This document shows positions 47,095 to 51,391 of a stretch of DNA of 64,000 nt, piece by piece (position 1 is the first letter of the stretch; each line of letters begins with the position of its first letter). The DNA comes from Basidiobolus meristosporus CBS 931.73. Lineage: Eukaryota; Basidiobolomycota; Basidiobolomycetes; Basidiobolales; Basidiobolaceae. The notes under the pieces are model-generated. The model searched no databases. It saw nothing but the letters and a program-made list of their open reading frames with translations, and was not told where the DNA came from. The stretch spans positions 1 to 64,000 of the forward strand of contig MCFE01000289.1 in the NCBI GenBank assembly GCA_002104905.1, written 5' to 3'. Made by a program: the position numbers and the translations under genes.

Positions 47095-47815
47095 TTAATA
47101 AAGACGTTGAGGTTTGCCCATGGAGCTCTTGATGTAAAGAGACTTGACGTTTTGCCAGTTCTTCTTCAGGAGGGAAACCAAGAAGTTGACTGACAACATG
47201 ATGTTACCGAGAAGTTGGTCCTCAGTCATTTGGACATGGCCGACCGCGACACCGAGGCAAAGAACCTTCTTAAGCTGGAACTTGATGGTGGAGCGAAGTT
47301 CGTTGGCCTTGTCGGACAAATTGTCGTTGTGGGAAACGGGGGTGGGGAATTTACCGGCCTTGTGGAGACCAGGGCCCAGAAGACGAGGGATTTGCTTAAT
47401 CAAAGCTTCAGAAGCAAGGAAAGCATCGAACTTCTTGGCGAGCTTCTTGATAAGCTTCTTGTTCTTGTTCAACTTCTTCAAATCCTCGACGGACATAGAT
47501 TCCAAACCTTGCTCCTTGGCTTGATCGCAGTGATGAGCATCACCAAGAACACAGACCGACATCTTGGGGCGGGGGACATTGGGAAGCTTGATGGTACCAG
47601 AGAAACGTTTGTCACGTTGGGGATCGTAGTTCTTGAGACCGATCTGGAGCTCGACGGTTTCGGTGAACTTACGGGTCTTCTCTTGGGATTCAGCCAAGAC
47701 AATGCGGACGCTCTCTCTCACGGCAGCGACGGAGACTTTGCTACTGTAGTATCGGGCGCATGTTAATGATGATTGATGGATGAACGCGCACCTAATCGAT
47801 ATCTGCGTACCTCAT
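47095..47815 (-). CDS. RPL10A: 60S ribosomal protein L10A (uL1)
   Basis: Two exons on the minus strand: 47811-47815 (just ATGAG) and 47095-47743, with a 67 bp intron; 217 residues, the exact family length. Marks: [50 protein letters not shown] and the end [10 protein letters not shown]. It forms the L1 stalk that handles exit of deacylated tRNA. The tiny first exon is conserved in type with other genes here. It diverges from RPC11 across 223 bp. Confidence 0.97.
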
Positions 47816-48038: not shown

Positions 48039-48488
48039 ATGTTATTCTGTCCGTCGTGTTCGAACCTTCTGCTCATCTCCAACGACACCGGTTCGAACCA
48101 CTTTTACTGCCAAACATGTCCCTACATGTTTCCCGTGACCAGGACGGTGGGTGGTTTTGTCCAGCATTCCGGCGACATCGGCTCGAGATACTGATCTTTT
48201 CCTCTTCCAGCATGCCACCAGGAACGTGTTGAAGCGTAAGGAGGTCGATGATGTCCTCGGTGGAGAAAAAGCCTGGGCCAATGTGGATTCCATCGAAAGT
48301 ATGTCTTGTCCTAGTTGCCTGTTACCATTGGTTGCTTTGCTAAATCCCCTCGTGTAGCTTCTTGTCCAAAGTGTGAACATCCTCGCGCGTACTTCTTGCA
48401 GATCCAAATCCGTTCGGCCGATGAACCCATGTCCACGTTCTACAAGTGCTGTAACCATGAGTGCCAACACCAGTGGAAGGAGAAATAA
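48039..48488 (+). CDS. RPC11: RNA polymerase III subunit C11
   Basis: Three exons: 48039-48146, 48211-48298, 48358-48488; 108 residues, matching the family. The N-terminal zinc ribbon is MLFCPSCSNLLL...CQTCPY. The linker has KRKEVDDVLGGEKAW. The C-terminal TFIIS-like ribbon has CPKCEHPRAYFLQIQ, RSADEPMSTFYKCC and ends HQWKEK. The acidic hairpin (RSADEP) stimulates RNA cleavage by Pol III. C11 is needed for termination and reinitiation on tRNA and 5S genes. Confidence 0.96.
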
Positions 48489-48939
48489 TTCGCCAGCATC
48501 CGAGGGGCATCTACCACTAGAGAGACTAGGGCTTGGTGCATCCTCAGATAACTTAATGACTAAATCATGTTGCGATTTATTAAATGGAATGTACAGTAAT
48601 AAACATATGCACCAATGCAGGGCTGTGCCATTGAAGGATGGTCAGGAATGGCAACCATTCCAACTTGTTTGCACAAAGGAAGTCCTACCAGATTTGAGAG
48701 TTCTTATCTGCCATGCAATTTCCTACTTATTGGCTTCCAGGGTACGTGATCGATTTGGGATGGGAATGGGATGGGAATGGGATTTGGCTAATTGAAAATT
48801 CATGGCTTCCTGTTTGGGCAAACAATCTCCATTAACCTTAACTCACACCGTCCCAGCCCAAGAATAGTGTTTATCCTTGCGCTAGGCTCTTCGTTTGTTT
48901 CCGTCCCTACTCGAGGCTTGCATCCATCCGAGCTTTTCT
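48489..48939. other. Intergenic between RPC11 and the MYND/presenilin locus
   Basis: No gene is supported. A GGGATGGGAATG repeat occurs near 48755. Confidence 0.5.
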
Positions 48940-49341
48940 ATGAATTCCGCAAGTGGAGTGCAGGCTGGTACTGCGTCTAGCAGTACCGATAGTGATAATG
49001 GTTGGGGCGATGTTTATTCATTCAACTGCCACATTCTCCACCCAGATAATATGAGCTAACCTGAACATTTTACTTCTTACTATTCAAGAGTTCTCAAGGT
49101 GCCATGTTTGTTCCAAGCCCGCCTTATTCATGTGCAGCGCATGCGGCTCTTCTGTTCAGTACTGTTCGGAAGGGTGCCAAAAAGAAGACTGGCCACAGCA
49201 CATCCAGACTTGCAGGAGGATAGCTGAGACAAATCGAGACAGCGGTAGAATTCGCTTTACCCATTCCTCTGCACTCGAGAAACTATACTCATCGCTGCCT
49301 TTATTTCACACCAAGCAGATGCTTCAGATATTAGCCAGGTA
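48940..49341 (+). CDS. MYND zinc-finger coding exons directly before presenilin
   Basis: A short first exon from ATG 48940 (MNSASGVQAG...) splices to an exon starting at 49088 or 49090. The donor is uncertain; several GT sites between 48960 and 49013 fit. The second exon encodes a complete MYND finger: CHVCSKPALFMCSACGSS, then VQYCSEGCQKEDWPQHIQTC. MYND fingers bind proline-rich partners. In the straight frame the protein ends LQILAR at a stop (49339-49341, or TGA across the next splice). An alternative intron (49245-49318, GTAGAA...AAGCAG) would put the finger in frame with presenilin. Which form is real cannot be decided here. Confidence 0.7.
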
Positions 49342-49396
49342 GGCCAGCTCAGCGCTCGCGTTGCTATTCTCTTGCTTACAATTCCCTTCGACGTAG

Positions 49397-51391
49397 ATGA
49401 CTTACGGCGACAGTCGACATAGCCAAGTTCCTTTCAACCAGAGCCCGCCTGTCGAGGATTCGCCGGAAGAGCAAAAAAGCGAACTTCAGTTCTACACGGC
49501 GCAAATTTACCAGATCATTAAACCTGTGCTCTGCTGCATCATACTCTCCATAGTGTGGGTCAAGATTTCGATGTCGGGGAGTGACTACCGGTCAGTATAC
49601 CCTAAGCGCTGCTAGACACACTAGGTTTAACGGCTTTCTTGTCGCAGACCGGCCCCATCTGGCTATGCAGTATACAACGAATCCGGAACCGGCTCCAGCT
49701 CCGATCGATTCGTGGGCTCTCTGTTGAACGCCTTGATCATCATTGGCCAGGTGGTAGTATCCACGTTCATCATTGTGTGTCTATTCAAGTTTGGATATAT
49801 CAAGGTAAATGCGGGGTGGCTTTGTGACTGTTTGTCTCCGTCTGATGAGCCTTCCCACTGTAGATATTGATCGGATTTTTCATTCTGGTTGTAACCACGC
49901 TACTGGGATTCATGGGATACTTGCTCGCATTGTAGGACCTACTGAGACGAGGCATATCGTTCCAACTGATGTTGATTTGGCCATTGTAGGAATCTCTTGC
50001 AGGTGTTCAATTTCGGCTTGGATTACATCACCCTTGTGTTTTGTCTCTACAACTTTGCCGCCGTCGGGCTGGTGGTGATATTCTGGAAAGGGCCGTTGCT
50101 GCTTCAGCAGATCTACCTGACCATCATGTCCTCGCTAATGGTAAGTGTGTGGGTGACTGCCCGTGGCGCTTTTGGCTGCTGACGATTCTCCCGATAGGCT
50201 TTCTCTCTGACTGGGCTTCAAGAGTGGACAACCTGGATGCTACTTGGGCTTCTGGCTATATGGGGTATGTCTTTCTTTTAATTGCATCTTGACGTATGCG
50301 CTGTGACGAATTCAATAGACCTTATTGCCGTACTTTGTCCATACGGCCCCCTGCGCATGCTTGTCGAGTCATCGAGAGAGCAGCAGAGAGATGTTCCGGC
50401 TTTACTCTATTCAGGCAAGTGACACTCCGCATCTCCAAAGTCGCCCGCCTCTGATCATCAGGCTAACCCATTCTTAGTGGGAAGCATCGTTTGGCTGATG
50501 GCAACAAATCTATCTGGATACGAACCGGTGCGCACCGGTAGCGACGAGTCTGGCGGCGGGCCATCCGAGTTGGAGTATTCACAATCCTCAGCCTCCCCCA
50601 ACCTTCGGAATTTGCATCCCAATTCCCTTTCTGCTGCGTCGTCCGCCCACCGTCCGTTTGATCAAGCCTCGGCTGCAAAGCTAGAGAACCCCTTCTTGGA
50701 AAGCACCGACTATCATCCCGATAGGCGAGAGATCAGCAGCGCCTCCACCAGCTCCACCAGCACTATCCTCGTCAGGCAATCCTCACTGATGCCTCGGGAA
50801 GAAGAGGTTCCTATGCAACCTCGGAGCGATTCTGAAAGCAACCTACTCTCCGTCTCTGGTGCAGCAACTACCCCCACTGGGAATCGGCAAGAACCCCCGG
50901 AGCCTGAAAACGGGGAAGATGGAGGTGAAGTGTTCTCCCATACGCACTTCCTTTCGAAAGCAAAGCTAACCCTTAACGGGACCATATGCAGATGAGCGAA
51001 GCGGGTTGAAGCTTGGCCTAGGGGACTTCGTGTTCTACAGCGTGCTGATAGCCAGAGCATGTGCGTAGGTTCAAGGAATTTATTGACAAGGACGATGTCT
51101 AAATCGTATTGCATTCTTCTGCAGCAATGTCCGATTGGATAACCACCATTTCGTGCTTGGTGGCCGTCATGACGGTTAGTACCTTGTTTAAAGTGGTCCG
51201 AGTGATAACTAACCTCCGATCATGGGCATTTCAAGGGATTGAACGCCACCATCTTTTTGCTGGCCATCGCGAGGAAGGCACTACCGGCGCTCCCGATCTC
51301 CATTGCCTTCGGAATACTGTTCTATTTTGTGTCCAGCATCATGCTTGTCCCATATGTCCAAGCACTTTCCATAGTTCAAATCATGATATAG
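49397..51391 (+). CDS. Presenilin, catalytic subunit of gamma-secretase
   Basis: Ten exons from 49397: 49397-49590, 49648-49804, 49864-49931, 49990-50140, 50198-50264, 50319-50414, 50478-50924, 50992-51060, 51125-51174, 51236-51391; 484 residues. Presenilin marks: [29 protein letters not shown], the first catalytic Asp213 in [20 protein letters not shown], a long hydrophilic Ser/Pro-rich loop (about 245-395), [15 protein letters not shown] with Asp405, and PALP (450-453) near the end. It cleaves membrane proteins within the bilayer with nicastrin, Aph-1 and Pen-2. The first motif is WD where most have YD. One intron (50415-50477) is GC-AG. The ATG is the first triplet after a good splice acceptor, so coding may continue upstream into the MYND exon. 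Confidence 0.95.

Follow-up and report, generated by a model that had tools for sequence, protein, structure and literature searches.

In a 64,000-nucleotide stretch of Basidiobolus meristosporus CBS 931.73 DNA (the window), carried by contig C523 of an 89.0 Mb assembly, a gene at positions 48940-51391 joins a MYND zinc finger to a presenilin. The two domains almost certainly form one fused protein expressed from one gene. To judge from its sequence, this fusion is likely to be the catalytic subunit of a fungal gamma-secretase equipped with an intact and functional finger. The architecture is real, conserved and not unique to Basidiobolus, and a description of it in the literature is apparently lacking. 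The sequence-only reading that drew attention to the locus had called this architecture new, which holds for the literature searched but not for the databases. Indeed, many MYND-presenilin proteins of fungi are already public, with precomputed Pfam labels giving both domains, whereas no description was found in the open-access literature searched, most subscription papers lying outside that search. Presenilin, MYND and fungi occurred together in no open-access paper found, the accessible text of PMC10406608 included. According to the same source, fungi were for a long time believed to lack gamma-secretase (PMC10406608).

The hand-built spliced model comprises 13 exons and yields a product of 563 amino acids, in which the MYND finger (residues 25-62) is followed by a flexible linker and a complete presenilin (Table 1). 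Only one of the 563 residues differs from NCBI protein P0001 (D100E, with Asp in the window and Glu in P0001). As had been predicted, a complete MYND exon precedes the presenilin (49089-49244), its zf-MYND match lying above the Pfam cut-off, and the intron 49339-49396 ends directly before an ATG at 49397. Two outcomes had been envisaged from there. Read straight on, the MYND frame does run to ...ILAR and then to a TGA overlapping ATG 49397; when 49245-49318 is removed as well, finger and presenilin fall in one frame, and this version gives the protein that equals P0001 bar one residue.

Introns are 54-88 nucleotides long, and 11 of the 12 start with a GT donor. The remaining one is a GC-AG intron, exon 9 ending at a GC donor at window position 50415 (GCAAGT). 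For the 5' part, exon 1 ends at 49000 or 49011 and exon 2 starts at 49089, 49091 or 49099 were all translated in combination, and the presenilin exon choices were enumerated. The 49011/49091 splice, also in frame (...NGWGDFSRCHVC), was set aside because P0001 reads ...NEFSRCHVC, and an exon 7 start at 50003 was discarded for 49990 after the enumeration. Both the intron 49001-49088, whose removal joins exon 1 to the MYND exon, and the GC donor at 50415 were missing from the sequence-only reading.

Table 1. Exons and introns of the MYND-presenilin gene (window positions)
Feature	Position	Strand	Content	Basis or remark
Exon 1	48940..49000	+	Start ATG and Ser-rich N-terminal segment, residues 1-20	Matches P0001
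Intron 1	49001..49088	+	88 nucleotides, GTTGGG...CAAG	CTAAC branch-like site at 49056-49060
Exon 2	49089..49244	+	Whole MYND zinc finger (residues 25-62) and start of linker	Pfam PF01753, Zn ligands
Intron 2	49245..49318	+	74 nucleotides, GTAGAA...GCAG, no in-frame stop	Spliced model
Exon 3	49319..49338	+	20 nucleotides, linker	Spliced model
Intron 3	49339..49396	+	58 nucleotides, GTAGGC...GTAG	Spliced model
Exon 4	49397..49590	+	Remaining linker from Met80, first transmembrane helix	Spliced model
Exons 5-9	49648..50414 (49648-49804, 49864-49931, 49990-50140, 50198-50264, 50319-50414)	+	Transmembrane part, first catalytic Asp (W291-D292)	Pfam PF01080
Exon 10	50478..50924	+	Large disordered loop for the most part	
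Exons 11-13	50992-51060, 51125-51174, 51236-51391	+	GLGDF (D484), PAL (529-531), stop codon	

The gene region is also found on a further contig, C850, with 99.4% identity along 9.0 kb. This contig most probably represents the other allele, both alleles thus being assembled as separate contigs. No difference separates C850 from the window between 48940 and 49416, so the two alleles agree in introns 1-3 and in the reading frame across them. An allelic difference at 49459 falls inside codon 100, and the Glu at position 100 of P0001 fits the C850 allele. Upstream of the gene, at 48762, C850 is 5 bases longer (extra GGAAT).

Homologues were taken as the best 120 of the 620 proteins above threshold, to which all counts out of 120 refer. 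Precomputed labels assign both PF01753 and PF01080 to 82 of them, so that the proposed search for MYND and presenilin in one protein among related fungi turned out positive. A profile made from 56 of the proteins finds the finger in 88, a figure that is partly circular because the profile was built from alignment A1, i.e., from 56 of the 88 MYND-bearing rows hand-chosen for spread. A second alignment, A3, comprises 52 rows, including four that lack MYND. The sources include Basidiobolus, Mucorales (e.g., Mucor), Umbelopsis, Mortierella relatives, Calcarisporiella, Syncephalis, Glomeromycotina (Rhizophagus, Gigaspora, Paraglomus, Acaulospora), many chytrids, Blastocladiomycota (Allomyces, Catenaria, Blastocladiella, Sorochytrium) and the aphelid Amoeboaphelidium protococcarum, the higher groups being those to which we presume these organisms belong from the source names. 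All share the two-domain order of the Basidiobolus protein, but the last MYND ligand is separated from a conserved Pro of the first helix (P122) by 34-172 residues, and the linker motifs are group-specific. When the aphelid N-terminal region served as query (8 candidates), it returned only itself and no MYND-presenilin outside fungi and aphelids. Of two Amoeboaphelidium presenilins (P0063 and P0071), only one has the finger; they may be paralogues, or one model may be incomplete.

Conservation around Met80 bears on the overlapping pair that the sequence-only reading had put forward beside the fusion, namely two proteins translated from one mRNA, the first a 103-residue MYND protein whose TGA overlaps ATG 49397, and on the further possibility of two separate genes. 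Retention of intron 2 would leave the frame open as far as that TGA, and 37 of the 56 aligned homologues have at least one Met between finger and first helix. However, ATG 49397 is codon 80 of the fusion and is not conserved, its column holding Met in 2 of the 56, while 35 have another residue and 19 a gap. The related B. ranarum possesses the same joined protein (P0002), and its alignment to the window protein shows that the linker is coding, with Ile at the Met80 position. No Met at all stands between finger and first helix in 19 of the 56, B. ranarum included; a conserved independent start codon for presenilin was not found, and the domains are joined across much of the fungal tree. Two proteins are thus hardly credible, and the overlapping pair is abandoned in favour of the fusion. 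Very unlikely as well is the production of both forms, the fusion mainly and, through retention of intron 2, a soluble MYND-only decoy competing for the same partner. The length of this intron (3n+2, without in-frame stop) would allow such a 103-residue MYND-only protein, but a stretch of 24 codons is free of stops by chance in about one case out of three, by our estimate.

The finger of the fused protein appears intact. Pfam zf-MYND matches the genomic DNA at 49100-49213 with 41.6 bits and P0001 with 36.4 bits (E 5.5e-9), for a cut-off of 22.7, and the eight Zn ligands of the C4-C2HC pattern are all present in P0001 (C25, C28, C36, C39, C46, C50, H58 and C62). Among the 56 aligned proteins, C36, C39, C46, C50 and H58 are invariant, C28 is found in 54 (two gaps) and C25 in 52 (two gaps, two Ala), while position 62 is occupied by Cys in 51, His in three, Pro in one and Ser in one. 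Mean pairwise identity reaches 0.51 in MYND and 0.57 and 0.68 in the membrane parts, compared with 0.15 before MYND and 0.19 in the linker. Between the two Basidiobolus species, 30 of 38 MYND residues are identical vs 23 of 47 in the linker.

The nearest solved MYND domains by sequence are those of DEAF-1 and CBFA2T1/ETO. Together with that of BS69/ZMYND11, they share with the Basidiobolus finger the Zn ligand pattern, the fold and the Tyr/Gln/Trp residues of the groove, but they reside in transcription regulators, whereas the Basidiobolus finger is tethered to a membrane protease. The groove residues Y45, Q51 and W55 are invariant in all 56 aligned proteins and are spaced as Y540, Q546 and W550 of BS69. 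The latter are described as contacting a PxLxP peptide, and strict conservation and an important role are ascribed to them in BS69, ETO and DEAF-1 (PMC4742278), the corresponding residues given for DEAF-1 being Gln529 and Trp533 (PMC3555993).

The presenilin part matches PF01080 over its full length (401.4 bits, profile positions 2-408 of 408). Its catalytic motifs are intact, with W291-D292, GLGDF including D484, and PAL at 529-531, and the presenilin membrane fold is found. Human PSEN1 lacks the N-terminal MYND finger and linker of the Basidiobolus protein, which for its part has WD where human presenilin has YD. The presenilin motif has been given as Y/WD (PMC2770060). Besides presenilin, a profile search of the genome identified APH-1, PEN-2 and nicastrin, with two exon matches each, all above the Pfam cut-off. 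With these partners encoded, the protein very probably belongs to a gamma-secretase.

A tree of the presenilin core was computed from 47 rows, i.e., 45 proteins selected from the 120 and the two copies contained in nematode protein P0023. With 36 rows labelled MYND and 11 labelled none, it largely follows known fungal groups, MYND standing on most branches. Gonapodya and Hyaloraphidium, both without MYND, branch off first beside the nematode rows; this fork is weak (80/54) and does not distinguish ancestral absence from later loss. Hyaloraphidium is uninformative on MYND as its model begins just 18 residues ahead of the helix motif, and some further rows labelled none may likewise be truncated. 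This pattern fits an old fusion followed by losses or incomplete models, although MYND might also have been absent at the base, as represented by Gonapodya. The distribution speaks for an early joining of the two domains in fungi, one that aphelids may share.

Several points weigh against a conserved, functional finger on a fungal protease. The splicing is based on homology and reading frame, and the query for homologues was itself MYND-bearing, so that the best 120 favour MYND-bearing proteins. Even so, 32 of the 120 show no MYND. One of these is the nematode tandem presenilin. In 19 of the 31 others, the helix-1 motif comes no later than residue 85, for which reason these short rows may be incomplete models; the other 12, including Gonapodya, Bifiguratus and Amoeboaphelidium occidentale, have longer N termini. 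Fitting the MYND label to the tree takes 7 changes, of which well-supported branches force at least 6. The MYND fold is recovered by structure comparison, but the matches are weak in absolute terms (best MYND by Foldseek, E 0.71), and we know of no partner or substrate of the protein. The Tyr, Gln and Trp of the groove are common among MYND domains in general. Ligand specificities differ from one MYND to another (PMC3555993), so the groove match suggests peptide binding rather than establishing it. The presenilins devoid of MYND could also indicate that the finger is a decaying passenger without function. This is highly improbable in view of the nearly invariant Zn ligands and groove residues and of the identity of MYND relative to its flanks, both in the 56 proteins and in the Basidiobolus pair.

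Under the preferred reading, one gene would thus give one polypeptide made of MYND finger, flexible linker and full presenilin, which would act as the catalytic subunit of gamma-secretase together with APH-1, PEN-2 and nicastrin. Since the N terminus of human presenilin faces the cytosol, the finger would sit on its tether at the cytosolic face of the protease. There, it would bind a short proline-rich motif (PxLxP/PPPLI type) of a cytosolic partner, and the docked substrate, adaptor or transcription co-regulator would be held where the cut intracellular fragment emerges. That the finger docks a partner through such a motif is, from sequence comparison, about evenly balanced. It is quite unlikely, but conceivable, that early fungi kept a Notch-like principle in which a transcription co-regulator waiting on the finger of the protease is passed to the cut fragment or set free along with it. 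By analogy, and just as doubtfully, the finger would be of the kind that in animals binds co-regulators of the SMRT/NCoR type. The fusion suggests a docking site absent from human presenilin and would make this a naturally occurring gamma-secretase whose adaptor is built in. We know of no fungal gamma-secretase substrate; a docking finger carried by the catalytic subunit in many of the lineages that retain the enzyme offers a handle on the fungal pathway, as what the finger binds may reveal it.

Linker sequences raise another role for the finger, that of a built-in regulator which would act on the protease itself, by stabilising, sorting or autoinhibiting it, perhaps through binding to the tail of the presenilin. 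A PRLTP/PQLTP segment, i.e., a PxLxP motif, stands directly before the first membrane helix in 27 of the 120 proteins, all from the Mortierella group by name; in one of them, P0016, it lies at residue 185 and is a possible own ligand of MYND. P.L.P is present in 6 of the 56 A1 linkers (shuffle mean 0.74, maximum 5 in 1000 shuffles) and P.[LM]T[EP]E, a pattern picked after the sequences were inspected, in 10 (shuffle mean 0.02, maximum 2). Proline motifs are not rare, as 44 of the 120 proteins carry at least one of three such patterns somewhere. Five of the six P.L.P linkers and seven of the ten P.[LM]T[EP]E linkers are from the Mortierella group and the rest from chytrids, so these counts are not independent, and the Basidiobolus linker is devoid of such a motif. 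The AlphaFold2 model of the Mortierella polycephala protein, with a mean predicted local distance difference test (pLDDT) score of 63.5, gives no sign of docking, although contacts could not be read from it. Segment 185-189 of this model runs into the membrane helix beginning at 189, the helix block has a pLDDT of 68, and the linker before the segment is mostly disordered. Self-regulation is thus rather unlikely, although it is the strongest competitor of docking to an external partner among the roles envisaged here.

Another linker motif, RGNxAQ[IV]IN-like and often followed by basic residues, was detected by scan in 15 of the 120 rows (P0037, P0040, P0053, P0055, P0061, P0064, P0067, P0084, P0087, P0089, P0093, P0096, P0098, P0106 and P0119), and aligned segments add P0045, P0080 and P0086. 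Its hosts are chytrids, Glomeromycotina, Umbelopsis, Calcarisporiella and Syncephalis; the motif scan did not find it in the Basidiobolus linker.

Some records of the set have unusual annotations. In Batrachochytrium salamandrivorans, P0109 and P0116 bear repeat-type Pfam labels (e.g., PF00514 and PF13646) besides MYND and presenilin, and P0045 of Rhizophagus irregularis also carries PF06094; these three may be merged gene models. The source record of the Mucor velutinosus MYND-presenilin P0006 calls it a mitochondrial ribosomal protein S27, probably wrongly. In the window, the gene has as neighbours a member of the ribosomal protein L1 family (47095-47811, minus strand) and a gene encoding a pair of zinc ribbons of the RPB9 and TFIIS types (48041-48489, plus strand), which we take to be RNA polymerase III subunit C11.
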